A stretch of 64,000 bases of DNA from Comamonadaceae bacterium (lineage in GTDB: Bacteria > Pseudomonadota > Gammaproteobacteria > Burkholderiales > Burkholderiaceae_C), in the NCBI GenBank assembly GCA_027485235.1, contig JAIXRJ010000046.1:1-64000 (forward strand). The letters run 5' to 3'. The position numbers were made by a program, and so were the translations under genes. Shown here in pieces: positions 1-11,440 of this stretch; within the stretch, counting starts at the first letter, position 1, and every line of letters starts with the position of its first letter. Below the pieces are notes generated by a model. That model saw only the letters and a program-made list of their open reading frames with translations, ran no database searches and was not told the DNA's origin.

Positions 1-2346
1 CGACAAATCGCCGAGGTTACTTTTGCTGCGGCCATCAAGCGAGGCGATGCAGGCTTTGAAGGTAAGCCAGCGGTGATCCTGGGCGTTCAAAAGCAACCCA
101 CGGCTGACACCACCAGCTTGACCAAATCCATCGAAGAAGCCATTTCGGACCTCAAGGCTTCCCTGCCCGCAGGGATGGAAGCCCCACGTGTGACATTCCG
201 TCAGGCCAGCTTCATCGAGGCGTCGATCTCGACACTACAAGGCAAGCTGATCGGCGCGTCGGTGTTTGTGGCCGCGATCCTTTTCTTCTTCCTGGGGACG
301 GTGCGCCCCACCATCATCGCGCTCACCGCCATACCGGTATCGATTTTCATCACGGCACTGGTGTTCAAGTACTTCGGCCTGTCGATCAACACCATGACGC
401 TGGGTGGACTGGCCATCGCCATCGGTGGACTGGTGGACGACGCCGTGGTGGATGTGGAGAACATCCTGCGCCGTCTCAAAGAAGACCGTGCCAAGGATGC
501 CAGCCAACGCCAGCCGCTGCTCTCGCTTGTAGCCAAGGCGTCCATGGAGGTCCGGTCGGCCATCCTCTATGCGACAGTGATTATTGTTCTGGTCTTTCTA
601 CCCCTGTTTGCGTTGCCGGGGCTGGAGGGCAAGCTGTTTGTACCGCTGGGCATCGCTTTCATCATCTCGACACTGGCCTCATTGCTCGTATCGGTGACGA
701 TGACCCCTGTGCTGAGCTACTACCTGCTGCCCCGGATGAAGAATCTGGACCATGGTGACACCAAGATGCTCACCTGGCTCAAGCAACGGTACAAGAGCAG
801 CTTGCAGGTGGTTCTGGAGAAGCCTCGCGTGGCCATGGCCAGCGCAGGGGTTGCGGTCCTGCTGGCAGCCACAGCTGTCCCATTCTTCCCCACCACGTTC
901 TTGCCCCCCTTCAATGAGGGCACGCTGCTCGTGGGCCTGCGACTGAACCCAGGCGTCACGCTGACTGAATCGTCTGCCTTGGCGCGCCAGGCCGAAGTGT
1001 TGGTCAAGCAAGTACCGGAAGTGGTGCACGTTGGCAGGCGCAGTGGACGCGCTGAGCTCGATGAGCACGCCGAGGGCGTTCATGTGAGCGAACTGGATGT
1101 GGGGATCAAACCCTCAGGAGAGCTGACTCGCTCGATGGATGAGGTTCGTGCAGATATTCGTACGCGACTGGCCAATTTGCCAGCCTCCATCGAGGTGGGA
1201 CAGCCGATCTCTCACCGGATCGATAACATGCTCTCGGGCGTTCGTTCACAAATCGCTATCAAGATTTTCGGCGAAGACCTGGATGTGCTTCGAGGGCAAG
1301 CCGACACCTTGCGCTCCCGACTTGCAGGTATCCAAGGCATCGCCGATCTGCAAATTGAAAAGCAAGTTCTTGCGCCGCAAATCAAGGTTCGGTTGGACTA
1401 CGCTGCGGTAGCCCAATACGGACTGTCGGGCGCACAAGTGCTTTCGACACTGCAAGCATTGGCCGAAGGCGAACGTGTCACTCAGATCATGGAAGAAGGT
1501 CGACGCTTTGCGCTGGTCGTGCGCTTGCCAGAGTCTGCCCGTTCGCTTGAAGGCCTTGGCCAGATATTGATCGAAACGCCCTTGGGCAGGGTGCCTTTGT
1601 CCAAGCTTGCCACGATTGAAGACGCTGATGGGCCGAACCAGATTAGCCGGGACAACGGCAAGCGTCGCATCGTGATCTCCGCCAACGCTTCTGGTCGGCC
1701 GCTCTCGGAGATCGTGGCCGACATTCGCAAGGTCACGGCGGAGTCTCGACTGCCCGAGGGCTACTTCATCACCCTTGGGGGGCAATTCCAAGCACAGGAA
1801 GAAGCGTCGCGCCTGATTTCTTTGCTTTCGGTTGTCTCTGTGGTGTTGATGTTTGTGGTGCTCTACAGCCGCTACAAGTCCACCGTTTTGTCGGCCTTGA
1901 TCATGGTGAACATTCCCCTCGCGCTCGTGGGTGCAGTGTTGGGACTGTGGCTGTCAGGACAACCCTTGTCGGTGGCAGCCCTGATTGGCTTTATCACCCT
2001 GGCGGGTATTTCAGTGCGTAACGGGATTTTGAAGGTTAGCCACTACATCAACCTCATGCGCTTTGAGGGAGAGTCCTTCAACACGCAGATGATCCTGCGC
2101 GGATCACTGGAGCGTTTAAGTCCCGTCTTGATGACCGCGTTGGTGACTGCGTTTGCACTGGCACCTTTGCTCTTCGAGGCCGAGCGCCCGGGCACCGAGA
2201 TCTTGCATCCGGTGGCTGTGGTGATCTTCTCTGGCTTGATCAGTTCCACGTTGCTCGACACATTTCTGACGCCTGCGATGTTTTGGCTCTTTGGTCGCAA
2301 GCCCGCCGAGGCGCTTTTACAAGACAAGGACGCCGAGGCGTTCTGA
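1..2346 (+). CDS. RND efflux transporter inner-membrane pump, heavy-metal (CusA/CzcA-like) type, 5' truncated
   Basis: The reading frame is open from base 1, so the N-terminal part of the gene lies outside the window; about 781 of the usual 1,030-1,080 residues are present. The first in-frame start codon (GTG at 73) is internal. Large hydrophobic blocks separated by a long periplasmic stretch show the RND fold. The segment IGGLVDDAVVDVEN sits where heavy-metal RND pumps carry their charged membrane-helix motif, but it does not match the classical CusA or CzcA version closely enough to name the metal. Such pumps export cations or drugs from the periplasm with a membrane-fusion protein and an outer-membrane channel, presumably encoded upstream. 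The small periplasmic protein gene starts 36 bases after the stop. Confidence 0.88.
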   Translation, partial: RQIAEVTFAAAIKRGDAGFEGKPAVILGVQKQPTADTTSLTKSIEEAISDLKASLPAGMEAPRVTFRQASFIEASISTLQGKLIGASVFVAAILFFFLGTVRPTIIALTAIPVSIFITALVFKYFGLSINTMTLGGLAIAIGGLVDDAVVDVENILRRLKEDRAKDASQRQPLLSLVAKASMEVRSAILYATVIIVLVFLPLFALPGLEGKLFVPLGIAFIISTLASLLVSVTMTPVLSYYLLPRMKNLDHGDTKMLTWLKQRYKSSLQVVLEKPRVAMASAGVAVLLAATAVPFFPTTFLPPFNEGTLLVGLRLNPGVTLTESSALARQAEVLVKQVPEVVHVGRRSGRAELDEHAEGVHVSELDVGIKPSGELTRSMDEVRADIRTRLANLPASIEVGQPISHRIDNMLSGVRSQIAIKIFGEDLDVLRGQADTLRSRLAGIQGIADLQIEKQVLAPQIKVRLDYAAVAQYGLSGAQVLSTLQALAEGERVTQIMEEGRRFALVVRLPESARSLEGLGQILIETPLGRVPLSKLATIEDADGPNQISRDNGKRRIVISANASGRPLSEIVADIRKVTAESRLPEGYFITLGGQFQAQEEASRLISLLSVVSVVLMFVVLYSRYKSTVLSALIMVNIPLALVGAVLGLWLSGQPLSVAALIGFITLAGISVRNGILKVSHYINLMRFEGESFNTQMILRGSLERLSPVLMTALVTAFALAPLLFEAERPGTEILHPVAVVIFSGLISSTLLDTFLTPAMFWLFGRKPAEALLQDKDAEAF

Positions 2347-2382
2347 CCTAGTTTTCTATCTCAACCCTAAAAAGGAAATCTC

Positions 2383-2757
2383 ATGAAATTCCGCACTTTC
2401 CTAATTACTTCGTCGCTGCTGCTGAGCGGACTCGCTTGGGCTGGCCCCAATGATGCCGACCACAAACCCATGCACGGAGGCGTTCTGACGACAGTCAAGG
2501 ACATCGACTACGAACTAGTTGCCAACCCCACAACGCTACGTCTTTATGTCCGAGACCATGGCAAGGCAGTCGATGTGTCCAAAGCCTCAGCCAAATTGAC
2601 GCTGCTGACCGGCGCTGAAAAGCAAGAGGTCGATCTCAGGCCGAGCGGAGACAAACTTGAAGCCACCGGAAGTTTCAAAGTCGTTTCTGGTGCCAAGGCC
2701 GTGGCTGTTCTCTCAATCGGAGGCAAGCAGTCCACGGCAAGATTCGTTCTCAAATGA
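2383..2757 (+). CDS. Small predicted periplasmic protein next to the RND pump
   Basis: This 124-residue protein has a clear Sec signal peptide (positive start, hydrophobic core, cleavage probably after AWA near residue 20). The mature part begins with Asp, His and Asn residues (DADHKPMHGG), compatible with weak metal binding, and continues as an apparent beta-rich domain. An AAAAAGGAA ribosome binding site precedes the ATG. It lies 36 bases behind the RND pump gene on the same strand, so co-transcription is likely. Proteins of this kind often accompany heavy-metal efflux operons. A role in periplasmic metal handling is inferred from position, and I know of no assigned function. Confidence 0.75.
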   Translation: MKFRTFLITSSLLLSGLAWAGPNDADHKPMHGGVLTTVKDIDYELVANPTTLRLYVRDHGKAVDVSKASAKLTLLTGAEKQEVDLRPSGDKLEATGSFKVVSGAKAVAVLSIGGKQSTARFVLK

Positions 2758-2927
2758 CTGGCATTCTGGCGATGGGTTGCGCTGCCGGTACATGATGACA
2801 TCGGTCGTTGGAGTGCATGAATCCAATGACCGGTTCAGGTCGAAAGGGCAAAGTGGGGCAACCTATCAGGTTCTAATTCCGGAGCACTCAGCAAAGATGT
2901 TCTGAAAACTCTCGGTAAAAGAAGATG
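2758..2927. other. Non-coding stretch behind the efflux operon
   Basis: I see no convincing gene, RNA or terminator here. Short open frames overlap the preceding gene out of phase and look random. The stretch ends at the first copy of the 98-base repeat. Confidence 0.5.
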
Positions 2928-3025
2928 TCTCAACATTTAGAATGATGAACTGGACCCCAAGTTCTTGATCGGCTTGCCCTTGGGTGATTTAGGCGGTTTG
3001 CGATCTGGCATCTTCTAGCCCGCCA
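2928..3025 (+). repeat. 98-bp direct repeat, copy 1
   Basis: This segment recurs at 5742-5839 in the same orientation with about six mismatches and no gaps. It starts TCTCAACATTTAG and ends TAGCCCGCCA. On the minus strand it contains a 24-codon frame from an ATG near 3013 (begins MPDRKPPKS and ends in Phe before TAA), open in both copies although copy 2 lacks the ATG. It could be the tail of a lost mobile-element gene. Together with copy 2 it brackets the TonB receptor and the broken helix-turn-helix gene. Confidence 0.85.
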
Positions 3026-3096
3026 AGACTATTTCGAACTTATTCCAAGTCGTTCGAACGATTTACAACCCGTTCGGGGCCTCCTTGGGTGCGCTC

Positions 3097-3429
3097 CTAG
3101 AACACTTTCCGGATCAGACAGGCTTCTTCATAGGCCTCAATGTCTTTGAGCCGGTACAAGACCTTCCCCACAATCTTCAAGTACTGCGGGCCCTCGCCGA
3201 CGGTGCGCCAGCGCTGAAGTCGCGCGACTCAACACACCCAACGATCGGCGAGCATTATTTCGGTCAGTAGCTCGCGTTTAGGTTCGGCCGGGACCTCTGG
3301 TACCAGGTGTTGGGGCTCGAGCTTGGATTCTCTGGCTGCGCTTTTAGCGATGCCGCTGGACAGGGCGTCCAGCACGTCACCCATTTTTTCAGCCCGGGGA
3401 TTCGAAGATGAGATGTGGTTAGTAGCCAT
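3097..3429 (-). pseudogene. Helix-turn-helix DNA-binding protein gene (AlpA/excisionase-like), interrupted by an in-frame stop
   Basis: The frame starts at an ATG at 3429 behind a good AAGGAG site and runs 66 codons to a TGA at 3229-3231. In the same frame it stays open for 43 more codons to a TAG at 3097. The sequence behind the stop, with LQRWRTVGEGP, YLKIVGKVLYR and a DIEAY ending, is typical of the second half of the small helix-turn-helix domain of AlpA-like regulators and excisionases. The stop falls in the turn of that domain, right after ADRWVC. A single substitution explains the break, so the gene is young as a pseudogene, or the stop is read through. It lies just beside repeat copy 1, and proteins of this kind usually belong to mobile elements. 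Confidence 0.72.
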
Positions 3430-3545
3430 GGTCTTTCTCCTTGATGCCTGTATGCAGTAATTTCATATAGGTTCATACCAGTTGGCCTGGCATTTTTTCT
3501 CAGGTGACAAGTTGGCGGGTCATGGTTACACCAATATAAAAAATT

Positions 3546-5618
3546 TCAGAACTGGAATCTCGTCGTCAACCTGATGGTTCTTGGTTCTGCCGGGTGCACA
3601 TGCATCCCGTCCACGCCCCCTAGCGGCTCGCCCGCGACACGCGAGGTGTAGTAGTAGCTGATATCGTTGTTCTTGCGATCGGCCAAATTCAGAACATCCA
3701 GCGCCAAGGTGATGTCGTTGGATATCTTCTTGGTCACACGCAGGTTGGTCGTCAAACTTGAGGTAGAGCGAACGCTGTTGTTTTCGATCAATGGGGCTGA
3801 CCCGATGTACCGGACACCCAGTGATCCAGACCAAGGCCCCAGATTCCTGGGTGCAAACGTGAGATTCGCAACTCGCTGGGTTGCATTGACGATGTAGTTT
3901 CCAACTGGGTCAGCATCCACATATCGGGGTCTGGTCCATGCCAGATTTACGTCCATCAGGAAGTGCTCTCCCGGCGTCCAATGGTTGCTCCACTCGATGC
4001 CGTTACGTTTGCTGTGCCTGCCAGCCTCGGTATTGCCTGCGTCTCCCACATAGACCAGTTCCGAGTCAAAGTCCAGGCGCCACAGGGCGAACGCGCTTTG
4101 CAGATTCGGAATGACTTCGGTCTTGAATCCGATTTCTTGCCCACGGGAACTGACCAAACCAGGGACTCGATCGATTGGCAGCCCCGTCTTGGGATCAACA
4201 CGGGCGGTCATGCCACGCGCATCGTTGCTGTGAAACCCGTTACCAGCGTTTAGGAAAAACTCCGTCTTGTTCCACGGGCCAAAGATGAAAGACATCTTGG
4301 GCGACAGTTTGAAGGCGCTGGCTTTTCCAGAGTTCTCACTCAGCGAGTGACTTGTCACGTTGACGTTGAGCCGGTCAGCCCTCAGGCCTGCGATTGTTCG
4401 CAACCAGGTGTTCCAACTGATCTCGTTTTGACCATAGACGCCGAGCATGGACTGACGAACCTGATCGTCCCGCACGGTAGCCTGAATTTGCCGCTGCGCA
4501 GTGTCGTAAAGGCCCACTCGAATATCGTCCTGCCTCAACTGGACGCAAACCGTATTGGACATCGTCCGGCTAGGCCCCAGTTCAGTGATCCAGGTTCTGA
4601 AAGCCTTGCCACCCATCACCGTCCGATGATCTGTCTGCGCAAATTGATCGGTTGGTCGCTCCAGGGCGTAGGTGAAGTTGGAGTACAGGTCGAGATCGTA
4701 TTTGAGGGCGTACCACTGGACCGCTGTGATCTGATTGTTCTCCGATCGTCTCCAATTGCCCGACAGGCTGACGCGACTTGTATTGGCACCGCCACTTGGA
4801 TCAAGACTGTCAAACCGCCCGAACGGCTGTCCTTGATAGCTGCCGGCATCAATCAGGCGCTGCGGCACTTGGTCTGTCGAGTTCCAACTGGCTGAATAGG
4901 CTGAAAGGCTGGTGCTCCAGTTTTCTCGAGGTGTCCCGCCGCTGAGGGTAAACAGTGCATTGAGTTTCCGGATGCCCTCAGGGACGGTCCAGGGGCCGTC
5001 GTTTTTCATTCTCTCGACAGCGGTCAGCAGTGAGACCCCCTCGGAGACTTCTCGCGAACCAGCGGCTAGGCCGCGAACATAGCCCCGTTGCCCCAAGGTC
5101 ACTGAGGCGAAGGGCTTATCCAGTTGTGTCTGGTAAATGATGTTGGCCGAGCCCGCGGAAGAAAAGTCACCCTCAGAAGCAAAGTAGGGGCCTTTGCGGT
5201 ATTCGACTCGACTGACCAATTCAGGGATCAGGATGTTCAGATCGCTGTAGCCATGGCCATGCGCGTGTGTCGGCATGTTGATCGGCACGCCATTGATCGT
5301 GGTGGCGAAGTCGGTGCCGTGGTCAAGGTTCATACCTCGCAGGAAGTACTGATTGGCCTTGCCATCGCCAGAATGCTGTGTCACGACCATGCCCGGGATG
5401 AACTCTAGGACTTCGGCAGGTCGCAGCAAGGCGCTGTTGCGCAGAAGTTCGGATCCAATAACACCCTGGCTCGCCGCATCGCTTGAGCCTACGGAGTTGT
5501 CGTAATGCCCCGTCACGACGACCGGAGCAAGGCTGGGCACTCCGTCATGAGCATGAACCCACCCCGTGATACAAAACAGAGCAAAGCTGGTCAGGAGAGA
5601 TTTGTGGCGGACTGTCAT
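3546..5618 (-). CDS. TonB-dependent outer-membrane receptor
   Basis: The 690-residue protein has a signal peptide (cleavage near WVHA-HD), an N-terminal plug domain to about residue 150 and a C-terminal 22-strand-type beta barrel ending in RFQF, with the terminal Phe needed for outer-membrane insertion. The plug has the usual PAEVLEFIPG, YFLRGMNLDHGTD and INGVPIN blocks. A His-rich loop, THAHGHGY, follows. No clear TonB box precedes the plug other than APVVVTG. Such receptors import metal complexes, siderophores or cobalamin with energy from TonB-ExbBD. A metal ligand is inferred from the His cluster and the nearby efflux genes, and the substrate cannot be fixed. The gene stands alone between the two 98-bp repeats. 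Confidence 0.9.
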   Translation of the reverse strand: MTVRHKSLLTSFALFCITGWVHAHDGVPSLAPVVVTGHYDNSVGSSDAASQGVIGSELLRNSALLRPAEVLEFIPGMVVTQHSGDGKANQYFLRGMNLDHGTDFATTINGVPINMPTHAHGHGYSDLNILIPELVSRVEYRKGPYFASEGDFSSAGSANIIYQTQLDKPFASVTLGQRGYVRGLAAGSREVSEGVSLLTAVERMKNDGPWTVPEGIRKLNALFTLSGGTPRENWSTSLSAYSASWNSTDQVPQRLIDAGSYQGQPFGRFDSLDPSGGANTSRVSLSGNWRRSENNQITAVQWYALKYDLDLYSNFTYALERPTDQFAQTDHRTVMGGKAFRTWITELGPSRTMSNTVCVQLRQDDIRVGLYDTAQRQIQATVRDDQVRQSMLGVYGQNEISWNTWLRTIAGLRADRLNVNVTSHSLSENSGKASAFKLSPKMSFIFGPWNKTEFFLNAGNGFHSNDARGMTARVDPKTGLPIDRVPGLVSSRGQEIGFKTEVIPNLQSAFALWRLDFDSELVYVGDAGNTEAGRHSKRNGIEWSNHWTPGEHFLMDVNLAWTRPRYVDADPVGNYIVNATQRVANLTFAPRNLGPWSGSLGVRYIGSAPLIENNSVRSTSSLTTNLRVTKKISNDITLALDVLNLADRKNNDISYYYTSRVAGEPLGGVDGMHVHPAEPRTIRLTTRFQF

Positions 5619-5741
5619 GCAAAACGTATTTACTTCTTAAGCAGTCTATCGCCTGTTTCAAAATAAATTTGAATTCCGCTGGTGATGAAACCTTAATCTG
5701 ACCACAACTGACGAGCCTAAAACTCATGCGACATGAGCCTT

Positions 5742-5839
5742 TCTCAACATTTAGAATAATGAATTGGACCCCAAGTGCTTGATCGGCTTGCCCTTGGGAG
5801 ATTTAGGCGGTTTGCGATCTGGTATCTTCTAGCCCGCCA
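5742..5839 (+). repeat. 98-bp direct repeat, copy 2
   Basis: This is the second copy of the repeat at 2928-3025, same length and orientation, with a few substitutions (for example AATAATGAATT against AATGATGAACT). It lies about 120 bases upstream of the TonB receptor start. Sequence outside the repeat differs between the copies on both sides, so the repeat borders are sharp. Confidence 0.85.
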
Positions 5840-6112
5840 GTGCAAAGACCTCAAACCTGCTCAGCAGGCCTTGAGGCAGCCTCAGGCCCCGCTCCACGCG
5901 GGGCTTTTTGCTTGGGGCCCCTGGTTGCGACCTTCAGCAAAGGCCCTGGAAAGGCGACTCAAACCCCGCTTGTCTCAGAACCTCATGACTTTTTTTGGAC
6001 TTGGTTCCGGACCGTGAATATGCAGATTTCGGCCAAACCAGCTTTGAACCTTGCTGAATGAGTCTTCGTTGTTCAGAGTGTTTTGATTGCCCTTTTCGTG
6101 GGGGACTGAGCC
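5840..6112. other. Gene-free spacer with an orphan terminator
   Basis: Between repeat copy 2 and the end of the nucleotidyltransferase gene I find no supported gene. Two overlapping plus-strand frames of 70-80 codons have no ribosome binding site or recognisable domain. The only clear element is the hairpin at 5886-5909. Confidence 0.5.
5886..5909 (+). terminator. Rho-independent terminator without an obvious gene
   Basis: A perfect 7-bp stem (GCCCCGC / GCGGGGC) with a 5-base loop is followed by five T residues on the plus strand. No plus-strand gene lies directly upstream, so it may be a relic of a lost gene or insulate against read-through. Confidence 0.65.
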
Positions 6113-7525
6113 CTATGCCCCGGCGCTGAACCAGCGCATGTGGACTGGAATTGGACTGTCCAGCGCCGCTGTGACGCCGCGAAATGTATAGGAGAACCCG
6201 ACGGCCTCGACAAAACGATCTGACAGCAGGGGCTTGTAGATCGCCCACTTGAAGGTGGCAAGCCTTGCATCATCGGCGCTGTTGGGGGTGGATCGCTGTC
6301 TCATCCCCAGCAGCATGCCGGGCAGGTTGAATATAGCAATGGCTGTCTCAGCTTGGGCCGGGGTCGCAAAGCGCGCCTGCACCTCGAGAATCCACCATTC
6401 ATCATGGCCCCGATGCATCGGCACAGGTGCCCAACTCACTTCCGCAGTCGAGGCCAGGCTGCTCTTCAGTGCGGCAACGGGTTCCGGGGACATGCGCGAT
6501 GGCCTCAACAACGGCTTGCCTCGGGTCGCGCGCCGCAAGGCCATGGCGCTGGCCGCGGCTGCTTCACCTGCGTGAAGATGATTGGCGCTGGAGGTGTACA
6601 TGCGCAGTTCGCGTTCCTGCTCGCTGTCTGTTTCTGCCGTCAGCGCGCTGATGAGCCAATCGGGAATGCGCTTGTCCAAGGCCTCTCGCAAATAGCGTAA
6701 GCCGGCGCAAACGATGACTTGGACACATCGCAAGCGTGCCTCCTGAAAAAAAATTTCCCAATCCACCTCGCCGCCATCGATCAGAGCACTGGCGTCAATG
6801 GTCCAGTCTGCATCGTTGTCCAGCGACCAGCGCACGCCGTGGATCAGCGCGATCAGCAGCGCATCGGTCGCGCAGGGCACGCGAATGGGCACGCCGCGCC
6901 AGGTCAGCACCTGCGAGCGCACCCAAAGTCCGTCGTCATCGCCCTTGAGCCGGTTCAGGTGATTGGAGAAATGATGCAGGTCCATTTCAGCCTTGCCTTT
7001 GCGCAGTGACCAAGCGTGGTGACCGGCCACTGGTGCGAGCTTGCGCAAGTTCAGCTGCCAGGGCAAGTCGACGATCTCCCAGCCTGCTTGCTCAAGCGTT
7101 TTAAAAGCGGCCAGCTCACGACCGAGCGGCACCAGCACATCGACATCGCGGATCAGTCGTTCCTGCGCAGTGGAAGCGTCCCGCGCAATTCGCGCCGCGC
7201 CCTTGAAGACAAGGGTAGGCATGTCGGCCCGCGCCAGCGCGGCCAGGCCGGTCAGGCCTTGCTGCAAACAGATCTGGCTTTGCACCCATAAGAACTTGCG
7301 AATACCCAGCACACGTGCCCGTATGGGCGAGTCGACTTCGAGCTCGTCAATACGCGCGGCCACCGCGCCCAGCATGCGCACCTCGTTCCAGGGCGTGGTG
7401 TCAATGTCACGCTCGCGCCGCCATGCCTGCCAGGCCAGACGCGCCTGCGCGGTGGGCGCAAGCGCGGCCCGCGCCAGCAAGTCCAGCGATCCCGTCGGAG
7501 TGCCCAGAAGCTTGTCCCCGCTCAT
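6113..7525 (-). CDS. Nucleotidyltransferase-fold protein (NTP_transf_5-like)
   Basis: The 470-residue protein resembles the uncharacterised nucleotidyltransferase family found beside PqqD-like and HPr-kinase-like genes. A KGA motif near residue 108 and RDVDVLV at 126-132 correspond to the active-site region of the polymerase-beta-like fold, where the two Asp residues would bind metal. The rest is a long, mostly helical extension without a domain I can name. It is the last gene of the operon. Its ATG overlaps the stop of the preceding glycosyltransferase gene in an ATGA arrangement, which indicates translational coupling. The family is expected to transfer a nucleotide to a small molecule or protein, and the acceptor is unknown. 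Confidence 0.78.
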   Translation of the reverse strand: MSGDKLLGTPTGSLDLLARAALAPTAQARLAWQAWRRERDIDTTPWNEVRMLGAVAARIDELEVDSPIRARVLGIRKFLWVQSQICLQQGLTGLAALARADMPTLVFKGAARIARDASTAQERLIRDVDVLVPLGRELAAFKTLEQAGWEIVDLPWQLNLRKLAPVAGHHAWSLRKGKAEMDLHHFSNHLNRLKGDDDGLWVRSQVLTWRGVPIRVPCATDALLIALIHGVRWSLDNDADWTIDASALIDGGEVDWEIFFQEARLRCVQVIVCAGLRYLREALDKRIPDWLISALTAETDSEQERELRMYTSSANHLHAGEAAAASAMALRRATRGKPLLRPSRMSPEPVAALKSSLASTAEVSWAPVPMHRGHDEWWILEVQARFATPAQAETAIAIFNLPGMLLGMRQRSTPNSADDARLATFKWAIYKPLLSDRFVEAVGFSYTFRGVTAALDSPIPVHMRWFSAGA

Positions 7526-8208
7526 GTCGCTTCACGCCTTCGCGCGATCGCCAGACGCGCGACTTGCAGCAAGGCTCCGTGGCGGGCTGCCTGACTCATA
7601 CTCAAAGAGGCCGGATGAAGCCGGCGCCGCATGACCACCCGCTGGTGCTCGCCAAAACTCGCTCCGGCGCGGCGCGCCCGGTCTACCCAGTCAATCCAGC
7701 AGCCCAGGCGCAATGTCGGATTGAACAGACCAGTCTGGTTAAAAACCGCCCGCCGCACCAGAGTGGCACCTGAAAGCCAGGCTGTCTGTGGCGGGCGTGG
7801 ACGCAAGCGTGCGGCATCTGCGCTGCCAAGGCTGGGGCAGACAAACTCCGTCACGCCACCAACACAGGCATCCAGGCCAGGATTCGCTGAAACATGCGCA
7901 AGCTGGATTTGCAGGCAGTCGGCCTCCCACAAGTCATCGGCATCCAGAAAGGCGAGCCAGTCACCTTGGGCCACCGCCAGACCGGCGTTCATGGCACTGG
8001 CCACGCCGTTGTTGGTCAGCCGGATCAGCTCGCTGCCCGCCAAAGCCCCAGCTTCGGCAACGGCAGCGGTGTCGTCGGTCGAGCCGTCGTCCACCACAAT
8101 GATTTGCACGGGCGCCAAGCTTTGTGTCTGAATGCTGTCCAGCGTTGCCGCCAGGGTGCGACCGGCGTTGAAGGCTGGCACGATCACAGAGACAAGGTTC
8201 TGGTTCAA
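7522..8208 (-). CDS. Family 2 glycosyltransferase (first of two in cassette, by coordinate)
   Basis: The 228-residue protein is a minimal GT-A glycosyltransferase: VSVIVPAFNAG at the start, VVDDGSTDDT near residue 40 and the nucleotide-sugar/metal site FLDADDLW near residue 90. There is no membrane helix, so it should act in the cytosol. The likely start is a TTG at 8208 with a GGAG site about eight bases upstream; it overlaps the stop of the upstream gene by TTGA. Its stop overlaps the nucleotidyltransferase start by ATGA. The sugar and acceptor cannot be read from the sequence. The operon context suggests modification of a peptide or a surface molecule. Confidence 0.85.
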   Translation of the reverse strand: MNQNLVSVIVPAFNAGRTLAATLDSIQTQSLAPVQIIVVDDGSTDDTAAVAEAGALAGSELIRLTNNGVASAMNAGLAVAQGDWLAFLDADDLWEADCLQIQLAHVSANPGLDACVGGVTEFVCPSLGSADAARLRPRPPQTAWLSGATLVRRAVFNQTGLFNPTLRLGCWIDWVDRARRAGASFGEHQRVVMRRRLHPASLSMSQAARHGALLQVARLAIARRREAT

Positions 8209-8951
8209 GACAAGGGCTCCAGGTAGCTCGCGAAGTCCCGCAGCGGCAGGGCCAGGGTGCCCGCGGCCCGTCGGCGCTGCATTGATTTGAGGGCAGCCAG
8301 CCGAAAGTCGGAATCCTTGCGCGGGTGGGGCACCGCCATCATCGAGGCCGCATGCTGGCGGTAAAAAAGCTCGACGCTACGCAAAATCGTGAAAGGCACC
8401 CCCTGCTCGCGCACGCGCAGCAGCAAGTCGACATCTTCGGCATAAAGCAAGTCCGGGTCGAAGGCGGCACCAAGCCTGCTGAAGACCTCCCTGCGGTAAA
8501 GGCAGGCGCCCACATGCACATGAAAGATCCGCTCGGTGCGCGAACCCGCGGCGGGCGCAAGACCGCTGGCGTCTGCCGTGTCGAAGTAGCCAACGTAACC
8601 CGAGACCATGTCAACTTCGGGCGCGACCGCAAGTCGACGCAGCTGTCTTTCCAACTTACCGGCGGGCCACAGGTCGTCCGGGTCCAGAAAGGCGATCAGA
8701 TCGCCAGTGGCCTGGGCGATGCCGCTGTTGCGCGCCAACCCAGGCCTGCCGGGTGGATGCTCCAGCAGCCGGATGGGTAGCCCGGCCTGCTGGTGCTTGC
8801 GCACGATCGCGTGGGTTTCGTCGGTGGAGCCCGCATCTATCAAGACGATTTCATGCGCGGCGACGCTCTGTTGGGCGACAGAACGCAGGGCCGCGTCAAT
8901 GAAGGACCCCATATTCAGGCTGGGCATGATCACCGAAACCCGTGCGGTCAT
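8205..8951 (-). CDS. Family 2 glycosyltransferase (second of two in cassette, by coordinate)
   Basis: The 248-residue protein carries VSVIMPSLNMG at the N-terminus, LIDAGSTDET near residue 35 and FLDPDDLW near residue 87, all typical of GT2 enzymes. It is a diverged paralogue of the neighbouring glycosyltransferase. A longer in-frame extension upstream is open, but the ATG at 8951 is preferred: it places residue 1 just before the conserved first beta strand and overlaps the stop of the kinase-like gene as ATGA. No signal peptide or membrane helix is seen. The donor sugar and acceptor are unknown. Confidence 0.85.
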   Translation of the reverse strand: MTARVSVIMPSLNMGSFIDAALRSVAQQSVAAHEIVLIDAGSTDETHAIVRKHQQAGLPIRLLEHPPGRPGLARNSGIAQATGDLIAFLDPDDLWPAGKLERQLRRLAVAPEVDMVSGYVGYFDTADASGLAPAAGSRTERIFHVHVGACLYRREVFSRLGAAFDPDLLYAEDVDLLLRVREQGVPFTILRSVELFYRQHAASMMAVPHPRKDSDFRLAALKSMQRRRAAGTLALPLRDFASYLEPLS

Positions 8952-10051
8952 GTCGGATCTGCCTGGGCTTGCAAGAAGGTGCGCAGGACTTGCGCCGCCG
9001 CGGCCGGCTCGGTGCCGAGTTCGAGTCGGTACGTCGGCACGGTTCGCACCAGACTGGCCACCTTGGCCAGGGTGCTCGATTCGCGACCCCTCAGCAAAAA
9101 TACGGTGGGTGGTGCGATGGCCCTGAGCAGCGCCGAGGCTGGCTGCGGCATGATCCTGGTCGAATCGGCGCCCGTGATGACGCACTGCACCAGCCCGGCC
9201 AGCGGCGCCTGCAGGGCCAGGCCCTGCGGTTCGACGTCGCTGTAACGCACCAGCCGCTTTTTGCCGCATGGCCACCAGGGGGCCGCCAGCAAGCGGGATG
9301 GGATCGCAATGGCACCTTCTGGCTCGAGTTTGAGCGCGTCATAAAGCGCGTGCGCATACCAGCCCTCTGTGGCCCGCTCGGCCAGCACCAAGTCGTCACC
9401 GCACACCTGCATGCCAACCTCAAAACAGGCGGCCACCGTGGTCGACTTGCCCGAGCCGCCAGGACCTACCAGCATCAGCGCGCGCCCGGCATCCACCACC
9501 ACGCCGCCGTGCAGCATGGACACGGGCTGATCCGATAAGAACCAATTGATCAGGGTTTTGAAAGGCGCGGCAGCCTCCCAAAACGGCACGTCCTGCGCAT
9601 CGGCCAGCCACAACAATGCCTCACCTGCTGCATGGTCCAGGATGAGCCAGAAGCGACGGTCGTGGTCATAAAACGCGCTGATCGATCCCTGTGGGCAAAG
9701 ATGCAAGCGCTCGAGATGGCGCTCGTCGGTGTGCGGCAGGTTCCACGGCGGGGGCGCCTGAGCCGAGATGGTCGAGCCGCACAAGACGTGAACGGTCAAG
9801 TCAGCTTGCCTGGATTCTGGACCGGTCTCATGCGGCAACATGCAGTGCGTCAGCCAGCGTCCTAGGGCAGCATCGTTGGCGCGCACCTCGCACGCCAGGG
9901 GGCCCATGCGGTGCGCGGAATGGTGGGACAGTGCACCCGCCACGAGCGCGATACCTTGTCGCAGAAGGGCCTTCAGTGCCTGCGTCGACTGCTCATGCGC
10001 ACCCACCAGATCGACCGACGCAGCAGCAAGCCCTTGCACGTCAGGCGACAT
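8948..10051 (-). CDS. HPr-kinase-like serine kinase (P-loop protein)
   Basis: From the ATG at 10051 the protein has 367 residues. The C-terminal half follows the HPr kinase layout: MLHGG with a conserved His at 181, Walker A GPGGSGKST at 196-204 and CGDD at 218-220 in the place of the second acidic motif. The N-terminal half (1-150) has no domain I recognise. An earlier ATG at 10093 is in frame, but the later one has a GGCGGGA site at proper distance and overlaps the PqqD-like gene by only 11 bases. Relatives in RiPP clusters phosphorylate precursor peptides, for example on a C-terminal Ser in some lasso peptide pathways. Real HPr phosphorylation is unlikely, because the protein is outside the ptsH/hprK context. 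Confidence 0.8.
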   Translation of the reverse strand: MSPDVQGLAAASVDLVGAHEQSTQALKALLRQGIALVAGALSHHSAHRMGPLACEVRANDAALGRWLTHCMLPHETGPESRQADLTVHVLCGSTISAQAPPPWNLPHTDERHLERLHLCPQGSISAFYDHDRRFWLILDHAAGEALLWLADAQDVPFWEAAAPFKTLINWFLSDQPVSMLHGGVVVDAGRALMLVGPGGSGKSTTVAACFEVGMQVCGDDLVLAERATEGWYAHALYDALKLEPEGAIAIPSRLLAAPWWPCGKKRLVRYSDVEPQGLALQAPLAGLVQCVITGADSTRIMPQPASALLRAIAPPTVFLLRGRESSTLAKVASLVRTVPTYRLELGTEPAAAAQVLRTFLQAQADPT

Positions 10052-10469
10052 CCGGAAATCCCGCCGGGCGCATCGGCCAGCCGCCCGCGGCATCCACTTC
10101 GTGGACCGGATCGATCGCTATCAGTTCGGCGAGGTCGGAAAAAACTTGCAGTACCGGCGCCTGAAAATGGCTTGAAGCAAAGATCAGCGGCGACAGCGTT
10201 GTGCTGTCGACCTGTGGCGCGCTCACGAGCAGTCCGTGCGCCTGCATCTGTGCCATCGTGTTCTGCAATGCCTCTGGATCGGCCCCCTGAAGGCTGCGCA
10301 TCATCGCGGCCACAACAGCCTCAGGCTCACGAGCCGGTGTGAATGAGCGCCAAAGCTCAGCAGCCGTGCCCGCCAGACTGAAATAAAGCCCGTTCTCGAC
10401 GTCGATCAGAACGGTTTCACCATCGAACTCCTCGGCAAAAACGCGTGTGTTGGCTTGAAGGAAATCCAT
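10041..10469 (-). CDS. PqqD-like peptide-binding protein with a substrate-like C-terminal tail
   Basis: Residues 1-87 form a PqqD/RRE-type domain: LIDVENGLYFSLAGTAAELW is the hallmark strand and helix, followed by a winged-helix half ending LQAHGLLV-like. Residues 88-142 form an extra tail absent from plain PqqD. It contains APVLQVFSDLAELIAID and the acidic HEVDAAGGWP stretch, then a Pro-rich end. The layout PxLxxF-x-DLxxL recalls leader motifs of lasso-type precursor peptides that bind RRE domains. It is the first gene of the five-gene operon. No separate precursor gene is visible upstream, so the tail itself may be the substrate (inference). The ribosome binding site is weak. Confidence 0.8.
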   Translation of the reverse strand: MDFLQANTRVFAEEFDGETVLIDVENGLYFSLAGTAAELWRSFTPAREPEAVVAAMMRSLQGADPEALQNTMAQMQAHGLLVSAPQVDSTTLSPLIFASSHFQAPVLQVFSDLAELIAIDPVHEVDAAGGWPMRPAGFPDVA

Positions 10470-10549
10470 CGTTACTTTGATTAATGCCGTAATGCGTGGT
10501 CTGGGGTTAAATTCAAAAGAGCAATCGTCTTGCTGTGTAGATGAAAAAA

Positions 10550-10555
10550 ATTATA
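10550..10555 (-). promoter_or_regulatory. Probable -10 element of the PqqD-kinase-glycosyltransferase operon
   Basis: On the minus strand a perfect TATAAT lies about 80 bases upstream of the PqqD-like gene start. No convincing -35 hexamer is seen at 16-18 bases spacing. It is the only good candidate between the operon and the integrase remnant. Confidence 0.4.
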
Positions 10556-10576
10556 CGGGACTCCGGGTACAGCAAG

Positions 10577-11177
10577 TTAGGGCTTGAGTGCTCACTTCAG
10601 GACCGGCACAGGGTTTGTTCGATGCGTCCTGTTTGTAATGCGTAACGGAAGACCTGCCCGGCCATTTGCTGCAAGTCTTGTGCTGTGCTCAATAGCCCTT
10701 TGGTCTTCAACTTGTGCAGTTCGCTCAATGCGTCTTTTGCTTTGAGGGCGGCGATAGCCTTGTCGCCATGCGTTGGGAAAGGGTGAAGCGCATTCTTGCG
10801 TAAGCACTTGCTTGCGTGAGCCTCGCTCCATCCACCAGCCTTCACGCCGTGATACTCGTGGGCCAGGGTTTCACAGGTGTTGGCTGCCGCCTGTTTCGCA
10901 GCCTTTTTTTCTTCCTGCTTCGCGGTGCTGGGTTCTACCCCCTTTTGCCAAAATCTCTTTTGCTTTATCCCTGCCCGCGCGAAACTCCTTGAGGGACACG
11001 ACTGGGCAGGTGCCGAGGGACAGCGTCTTTTGCTTGCCGTGCATCCCTTAGTTCATGCGCAATTTTCCCAGATGCCGTCGCGTAAAGGTAAAGCCCTCCA
11101 CCATCGCTGTGCTTGTCGCCTGCGGATTTGCCGATGTGTTGTGTGCCGTTTTTGATGAAGGTGTCGTTCAGTGCCAC
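10577..11177 (-). pseudogene. Tyrosine-type site-specific integrase (P4-like), truncated and frameshifted
   Basis: Pieces of one integrase are spread over several frames. The start MALNDTFIK and SDGGGLYL are the arm-binding N-terminal domain. Then come fragments reading GKQKTLSLGT, VSLKEFRAGRDKAKEIL and PSTAKQEEKKAAKQAAANT. The core-binding domain follows with KAGGWSEAHASKCLRKNALH and AQDLQQMAGQVFRYALQTGR. Several frameshifts and stops separate the fragments, and all of the C-terminal catalytic domain with the Arg-His-Arg-Tyr residues is missing. The gene points away from the adjacent tRNA-Gly gene, whose 3' end is about 190 bases from the integrase start. This is the usual arrangement for an element inserted in a tRNA gene. 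It cannot be active. Confidence 0.87.
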
Positions 11178-11297
11178 ATTTCCACCCTTGTTTGTAAAAA
11201 TCAGGGTTGTGGGTAGAGGGTTGATGCCATTGGATACCAGCTTTTATACCAACAAGCCGTCGGTGTGTCCTGCGACGTGGTGCAGTGACATGAGGTA

Positions 11298-11331
11298 ACA
11301 AAAAACCCGCTCTGCTAGAAGGCAGACGGGT
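11298..11331 (-). terminator. Rho-independent terminator of tRNA-Gly
   Basis: On the minus strand the stem CCCGTCTGC pairs with GCAGAGCGGG around a short loop and is followed by six T residues. It sits about 35 bases beyond the tRNA 3' end. Confidence 0.75.
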
Positions 11332-11365
11332 CGTGATACTTCGTGATGAGGTCTGACTTGACCTT

Positions 11366-11440
11366 TTGGAGCGGGTGATGGGAATCGAACCCACGTTGTT
11401 TGCTTGGGAAGCAAGAGTCCTACCATTGAACGACACCCGC
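11366..11440 (-). tRNA. tRNA-Gly (anticodon CCC)
   Basis: The 75-nucleotide gene folds into a full cloverleaf. The acceptor stem is GCGGGTG/CACCCGC, the D arm contains GTTCAATGGTAGGAC, the anticodon loop is TTCCCAA, the T arm contains GGTTCGATTCC, and CCA is encoded. The CCC anticodon reads GGG codons. A decayed integrase gene begins about 190 bases from the 3' end, so this tRNA probably served as an integration site. Confidence 0.95.

Follow-up and report, generated by a model that had tools for sequence, protein, structure and literature searches.

Introduction

Discrete RiPP (ribosomally synthesized and post-translationally modified peptide) recognition elements, or RREs, normally bind the leader of a separate peptide, according to the available part of one account (PMC7470986). 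In the phosphorylated lasso peptides such an element works with a kinase: in the accessible portion of the report on the bsf system, the RRE protein BsfB1 strongly accelerates phosphorylation of the precursor BsfA by BsfK, a YxxPxL motif in lasso leaders (Tyr-17, Pro-14, Leu-12) is needed for recognition by B1, and the kinase carries the motif H148-G163-G166-G168-K169-S170-D186-D187 (PMC10368454). For pseudomycoidin, PsmK phosphorylates and PsmN then adds one or two hexoses, with nucleotidylation left open as an alternative in the part of that report at hand (PMC9266682). Proteins of more than 110 amino acids that match only PF05402 have likewise been described, in the portion available, as RREs with extra unannotated sequence (PMC12710340). 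Here we describe a cassette on the minus strand (10469..6113) of a 64,000-nucleotide stretch, hereafter the window, of contig JAIXRJ010000046.1 from a Comamonadaceae bacterium, in which genes for a PqqD-like RRE protein, a kinase, two family 2 glycosyltransferases (GT2) and a nucleotidyltransferase-fold protein of the NTP_transf_5 family (NTP5) follow one another in that order. The module is real and conserved, not a coincidence of one strain, and we propose, tentatively and as a reading that may quite possibly hold, that it is a mobile, self-contained unit that phosphorylates and glycosylates a peptide or protein.

Results

A five-gene module conserved across phyla

All five families named by the initial annotation are present on the minus strand. 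The pqqD-like gene (10041..10469) encodes 142 amino acids (PF05402, 31.2 bits against a cut-off of 23.4) and is followed by the gene for an HprK-type, peptide-kinase-like P-loop protein of 367 amino acids (8948..10051), assigned by family profile and motif, by a first GT2 gene (8205..8951; 248 amino acids; PF00535, 91.8 bits), a second with a TTG start (7522..8208; 228 amino acids; PF00535, 106.2 bits) and the NTP5 gene (6113..7525; 470 amino acids; PF14907, 73 bits against 31.2). The four junction overlaps can be read in the sequence just as had been claimed: 11 bases between pqqD and the kinase (10041-10051), ATGA between the kinase and the first GT2 (8948-8951), TTGA between the two GT2 genes (8205-8208) and ATGA before NTP5 (7522-7525). 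The most likely kinase start is the ATG at 10051, which produces the 11-base overlap, although the longest open reading frame (ORF) of that gene begins at 10093; the first GT2 most likely starts at 8951, the ATG within the ATGA overlap, the ORF from 9275 being over-extended. The pqqD product and NTP5 are the sole matches to PF05402 and PF14907 in the window's genome.

Genome contigs were scanned with a profile built from a 38-sequence kinase alignment, which gave at least 64 loci; together with one locus from a sample of relatives and the window itself, they make a set of 66 with a kinase match (individual loci, proteins and genomes are given below by L, P and G numbers). Because these loci were picked by their kinase and include several near-copies (L012-L017, L006/L007), the figures that follow are counts and not frequencies; 16 of the loci end less than 4.5 kb past the kinase, and some metagenome-assembled genome labels look doubtful (L037, 'Klebsiella'; L061, 'Akkermansia'). 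A pqqD gene lies upstream of the kinase on the same strand in 60 of the 66. In 39, that strand carries NTP5 and two or more GT2 domains as well as pqqD. The 39 span nine named phyla (Pseudomonadota, Actinomycetota, Chloroflexota, Planctomycetota, Bacteroidota, Thermodesulfobacteriota, Verrucomicrobiota, Acidobacteriota and Gemmatimonadota), together with one locus that has no phylum label and the window. These counts rule out chance co-occurrence in a single strain, which the initial annotation had named as one of two findings that would undo its proposal. Its argument that the products belong together gains from the order kept across phyla, from fusions of the two glycosyltransferases in L026, L036, L040 and L059, and from 13 proteins in which PqqD, its tail and the kinase are one chain (P0096, P0191, P0108 and P0192-P0201). 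Long pqqD frames in L031, L044 and L046 were considered as further fusions and set aside, their sequences reading as over-extended ORFs.

In a tree of 126 GT2 domains the two positions mostly represent two separate families with mirrored subgroups, as expected were the whole set inherited as a unit. Of the 45 second-position rows, 37 lie in one 44-row clade with support 99/97, within which the window's second GT2 falls; 37 of the 58 first-position rows lie in one 42-row group (support 81/92, with an open fork), and the window's first GT2 groups with first-position enzymes of other modules. Neither position label is strictly a clade; the two require 17 and 14 changes on the tree, against means of 42.2 and 36.9 for shuffled labels, and none of 500 shuffles was as low.

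A conserved tail on the PqqD-like protein

The pqqD product is laid out as an RRE domain (about residues 1-84), a variable linker, a leader-like strand and a conserved tail. The last two occupy residues 102-142 (FQAPVLQVFSDLAELIAIDPVHEVDAAGGWP...; 10044..10166, minus strand) and follow the pattern [FY]xxPx[LVI]xx[YFH]xD[LM]xxL[LI]x[LI]DP[IV]H[DE]VxxxGWP. In an alignment of 92 PqqD sequences two of its positions, D120 and P121, do not vary, and P105, D112, L116, H123, V125, G130, W131 and P132 are each kept in 90% of the rows or more. Several tail positions are thus more conserved than the RRE part, where, besides M1, just E18, G27, Y29 and W40 reach 90%. A profile of the tail run against the loci matches, below an E value of 0.6, nothing but the pqqD genes; across 52 module-bearing genomes it gives 63 matches at E ≤1e-4, all in frames of at least 131 amino acids, the next best (E 0.046-0.5) standing outside this count. 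Twelve stretches around tail matches were compared, of which one (L096) turned out to duplicate L027. The 11 further tail-bearing stretches have a kinase, separate or fused, in 11 of 11, GT2 in 11 of 11 and NTP5 in 10 of 11; the one without NTP5 (L097) ends shortly past the kinase. These places were not selected by their kinase, yet eight of the 11 come from genomes first found through it. One stretch (L095) holds two tail-bearing PqqDs, one of them with no kinase gene directly adjacent. The tail, which the initial annotation had missed, thus appears from sequence comparison to be a linked feature of the module, and its profile retrieves modules.

An AlphaFold model built with the 92 sequences (mean predicted local distance difference test, pLDDT, 86) places a strand at residues 106-110, inside PVLQVF and in a region whose pLDDT is about 95, and a short helix at 113-118; as modelled, the leader-like stretch would add an extra strand to the RRE. 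The nearest solved structures are RREs, several of them with leader peptides: TbiB1-TbiA (Foldseek E 3.4e-4), lasso B1, NisB-NisA and TigE. Structural alignment with NisB (4wd9) and TigE extends to model residue 111-112. The 4wd9 alignment runs to residue number 1018, which we take to lie past the end of NisB, and the PqqD strand may therefore overlie the NisA leader.

Of the 63 PqqDs of the loci, 51 contain the pattern [FYW]xxPx[LIVMF]xx[YFHW]. When the BsfA leader, a single precursor, is set against the tail profile it aligns in the same register, with 16 of 5000 shuffles scoring as high, and BsfB1 scores 52.7 bits against the PqqD family profile. Two NCBIfam lasso PqqD models did not support membership of the window's protein: one gave it 24.5 bits where the cut-off is 80, the other 23.7 where it is 70.

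The tail aligned in register with a lasso leader, and the conservation of several of its positions above that of the RRE, might also be taken to mean that the RRE protein combines leader and core in one chain and is itself the substrate. Residues of tail or linker would be phosphorylated and glycosylated, and the product would be the modified protein or a tail released from it. The 122 bp that complete the cassette beyond its five genes lack any ORF above 36 codons, and the linker is rich in Ser and Thr in many members. However, some linkers are nearly free of both (L045), and no hydroxyl residue is universal in the tail. The tail is internal in the 13 fusions, ahead of the kinase, so that no C-terminal core could leave without splitting off the kinase and release as a core is unlikely. 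We regard self-modification as distinctly unlikely. The model of P0096 shows, between tail and kinase, strands and helices that make up a second RRE-like set; five models were made of the 13 fusion sequences (mean pLDDT 54-75), in which the tail is mostly below 50 and which carry no information on docking.

Kinase and nucleotidyltransferase

Among the 38 aligned kinases H195, G210, G213, G215, K216, S217, D234 and K279 are invariant (numbering of the 381-amino-acid ORF) and D233 is at least 90% conserved. The H-G-G-G-K-S-D-D spacing of the family is identical to that of the BsfK motif, and BsfK itself scores 67 bits against the family profile. When the profile was compared with Protein Data Bank (PDB) sequences, HPr kinases came out on top with general P-loop proteins beneath. 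Pfam gave the window's kinase P-loop matches only, all under cut-off, and no match to PF07475; membership of the HPr-rel-A family (NCBIfam HprK_rel_A, TIGR04352) was rejected at 34 bits against a cut-off of 200. A phage source finds no echo in 50,697 phage records, in which the kinase had no match at E 1e-5, and a role in anti-phage defence was set aside when PADLOC-DB returned no family for the five proteins at E values up to 0.01.

NTP5 clears the PF14907 cut-off and keeps the KG, R and DxD positions of a nucleotidyltransferase motif: K108, G109, R123, D127, D129 and D244 are 87-100% conserved in 53 module copies. A PDB sequence search with NTP5 gave a chance-level match only.

Lasso enzymes and the search for a precursor

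The initial annotation had seen neither lasso cyclase nor protease beside the operon, and this holds for the whole genome of the window (95.85% complete), which has no match to the leader peptidase family B2 (Transglut_core3, PF13471) or to the lasso cyclase family Asn_synthase (PF00733); a lasso pathway in this host was rejected on these grounds. PF13471 has 27 matches in 51 other genomes, spread over 19 of them; in G062, G065 and G067 alone is there a tail-bearing pqqD on the same contig, the nearest about 69 kb away. PF00733, matches to which are found in most bacteria, was present in 23 of the 28 genomes searched (of 54 that bear the module), and where it shares a contig with the module (G044, G129) the nearest is a weak 23.9-bit piece about 40 kb off. 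These searches strengthened the case against a lasso pathway and left our odds for the several readings unchanged.

We also looked for a peptide substrate. No cross-clade precursor was recognisable among 4586 small ORFs near modules, where a fast-evolving one could escape; 14 small-ORF clusters cross clades, each of two to four members, and those from Spirosoma, L010 and L059 were rejected as precursors, being antisense to larger genes. Nor did any small ORF in the 52 genomes bear the tail at E ≤1e-4. A precursor encoded elsewhere in the genome, which binds the RRE by pushing aside the built-in strand, would accord with the separate leader that discrete RREs normally bind (PMC7470986) and with the way the B1-K-N sets of lasso clusters work, as far as the accessible text describes it (PMC10368454). 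No tail-like peptide was found outside frames of at least 131 amino acids, although a short precursor with YxxPxL alone would escape that search; we hold a RiPP pathway of this kind to be highly improbable.

Neighbouring genes and export

The initial annotation had looked to a conserved sixth partner. No universal one was found in the 66 loci, of whose neighbours 35 were chosen and scanned with Pfam. Its other concern, that homologous neighbourhoods might always contain a capsule or O-antigen exporter, is not borne out either: an ABCB-type exporter family adjoins the module in 10 of the 66 (L018, L026, L031, where it is split, L034, L036, L038, L039, L041, L042 and L059; Pfam-confirmed in L038, L039 and L059), and a Wzm/Wzt-like pair is suggested only in L056, by gene size and one ABC_tran match (a Wzt-sized protein of 428 amino acids, accompanied by a TPR-GT2 fusion), and in L057, by size. 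With neighbours scanned in part, a consistently linked polysaccharide exporter was not seen across the 66 loci or in the window's cassette.

The remaining neighbours are diverse. Amj, an alternate lipid II flippase family, comes directly after NTP5 in Spirosoma (L021:13414-14220), and L025 and L028 have genes that equal it in size. A bifunctional ATP-sulfurylase/APS kinase gene lies immediately 5' of a tail-bearing pqqD (L102:4585-6219) and hints at sulfation in that variant. Elsewhere there are FkbM/radical SAM, SDR/GFO-IDH/SMP-30 and alpha-amylase genes, and the glycosyltransferases are expanded in L055.

Such company favours what we consider the main rival, a glycan acceptor: the five genes would form an accessory cassette for a surface glycan, in which a sugar or lipid-linked glycan is the target of kinase and NTP5, the GT2 enzymes build that glycan, and the RRE protein is no more than a scaffold with its own strand in the groove. 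The expansion in L055, GT4 neighbours and sugar-modifying enzymes fit this account, and so do the Wzt-sized ABC_tran protein and its like-sized counterpart in L057, Amj in Spirosoma and the PAPS-synthase-like gene of L102. Against it, the recurrent neighbours showed no priming transferase, polymerase or exporter that is conserved; the stretch common to the window and L005 consists of the five genes only, though L004 and L005 share about 450 bp downstream; and an RRE with a peptide-kinase-like kinase would be otherwise unexplained. We think a glycan cassette rather doubtful.

Genomic setting and signs of mobility

DNA identity between the window and L005 (93%, blastn) is confined to 6113-10591, that is, the five genes and 122 bp upstream (10470..10591, minus strand); the upstream stretch, with which identity stops at 10591, forms the edge of the cassette and presumably holds its promoter, and no sigma-70-like site was found in it. 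Its longest ORF is at most 36 codons. Just beyond lie two separate pieces of a decayed tyrosine integrase (10597..11044, minus strand; Phage_int_M, 57.1 bits; Arm-DNA-bind_3, 24.5 bits, under the cut-off of 27) and then a tRNA-Gly (CCC) gene (11367..11440, minus strand; ARAGORN and Rfam), a probable integration site. Homology with genomes of the same genus (G004, G017) begins exactly at 11367, the 3' end of the tRNA, and positions 1-11366 of the window have no blastn match in the roughly 18 kb past the tRNA-Gly of those two genomes. Together, integrase remnant, tRNA-Gly and synteny break look like an old genomic-island site. The cassette, too, looks mobile, because identity is limited to it and because of the decayed integrase and the synteny break.

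In the sample of relatives the kinase has a match in none of 23 other genomes of the genus and in one of 16 of the same order, and tail matches below 1e-15 occur in four of 369 class-wide genomes, the window's own included, with a fifth weak only (3.7e-4). A cyanobacterial plasmid, pCRI9333.04 of Crinalium (L082, 5896-10295), bears a variant with genes for PqqD, a nucleotidyltransferase, an HPr kinase, an FkbM methyltransferase and GT2, in that order; its glycosyltransferase genes number two.

The picture is not altogether tidy. L004 and L005 additionally have in common, besides the downstream stretch of about 450 bp, a separate 209-bp upstream stretch, so that a single, older event may account for both insertions. 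A search for att-like repeats brought none to light, and scattered short tblastx pieces elsewhere in the comparison with G004 and G017 were read as noise.

Elsewhere in the window, positions 2905-3025 and 5719-5839 are direct copies of 121 nt, 88% identical, that flank a TonB-dependent receptor gene (3546-5618, minus strand). These may be remnants of a mobile element.

Discussion

We suggest, as the most economical reading of this module, a machine for phosphorylation and glycosylation of a peptide or carrier protein. It would be kin to the B1-K-N accessory genes found with phosphorylated lasso peptides, but with a leader-like tail built into the RRE. The RRE protein would serve as a scaffold, its own C-terminal lasso-leader-like stretch (F/Y-x-x-P-x-L) adding a strand to the RRE and presenting the conserved tail (DxxxLLxLDPxHxVxxxGWP), at which, we infer, the partner enzymes dock. 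This complex would hold a peptide or protein, a hydroxyl of which the HprK-type kinase would phosphorylate, and NTP5 would then move a sugar or nucleotide onto the phosphate, a step of the kind reported for the pseudomycoidin enzyme PsmN. The pair of GT2 enzymes may extend this addition, and in some lineages an ABC exporter may carry the product out. Gene content, the order that is kept, joint inheritance, signs of mobility, the tail with its constant company and the conserved catalytic motifs are shown by the analysis; the reactions and their sequence, the docking at the tail and a peptide or protein acceptor in preference to a glycan are inference. The initial annotation had raised peptide modification as one possible function. 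The part of that idea that leans on precedent stands, since the available accounts describe an HprK-like kinase that modifies a lasso precursor with the help of an RRE, and a protein resembling nucleotidyltransferases that puts hexoses on a phosphorylated lasso peptide; a free precursor, one of the partners it had listed to look for, was not found.

Several observations weigh against peptide or protein modification guided by a built-in leader. Neither of the precursor searches yielded a candidate, and several loci have glycan-like neighbours (GT4, FkbM methyltransferase, SMP-30, the Wzt-sized ABC_tran protein, Amj). The tail has no universal Ser or Thr. Position 111 is Ser or Thr in 78% of the 92 rows and often Asp, Glu or Asn in the loci, which would fit a helix cap better than a phosphorylation site; with no Ser or Thr that is fully conserved, the tail is at most a putative carrier of the phosphate. 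Its second half is absent from five PqqDs (L035, L040, L049, L060, L062), which end in 'DPP' or similar, and 12 of the 63 PqqDs of the loci do not have the leader-like pattern as written. The BsfA match to the tail is weak (2.1 bits), and residues 111-142 of the AlphaFold model are of low confidence (pLDDT 53-62).

Modification of a peptide or protein by a mobile unit nonetheless remains the account we put forward. Another outcome, which strikes us as rather unlikely, would be a RiPP-like or protein-modifying logic of a new sort: an RRE with its own leader-like strand and a conserved carrier tail forms a scaffold on which kinase, nucleotidyltransferase and glycosyltransferases build a phosphoglycan without a separate precursor, the 4.5-kb cassette moving between phyla. 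Because this genome has no cyclase match, the chemistry of the RRE-kinase-nucleotidyltransferase trio is testable in isolation. The leader-like tail in cis, moreover, provides a handle for finding such modules and suggests how an RRE may act without a free precursor.

Known systems share parts of this arrangement. HPr kinase/phosphorylase (PF07475) has in common with the window's kinase the P-loop and a His and Asp pair, although the likeness is limited to about 50 residues around the P-loop. The HPr-rel-A system (TIGR04352) also has an HprK-related kinase and also occurs beside a PqqD-like protein, but the window's kinase falls far under the cut-off of that family. The RREs with extra sequence are likewise long PqqD-type proteins without a second Pfam domain; neither the tail nor the gene set is described in the available part of that account (PMC12710340), and in the accessible portions of the open-licence literature searched we recognised no description of the five-gene set or the tail. 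Compared with lasso clusters, the cassette comes without a separate precursor that we could find and without a leader-peptidase or cyclase family match in its genome. The closest likeness is with the B1-K-N genes (bsf, paeninodin, pseudomycoidin), which also combine an RRE, an HprK-like kinase and a nucleotidyltransferase, with identical kinase motif spacing and a lasso leader YxxPxL that the start of the cassette's tail resembles. From these sets the cassette differs in that it fuses a leader-like tail to the RRE protein and adds two GT2 enzymes, and it thus presents the same trio, with two dedicated glycosyltransferases, in a minimal and apparently mobile form.

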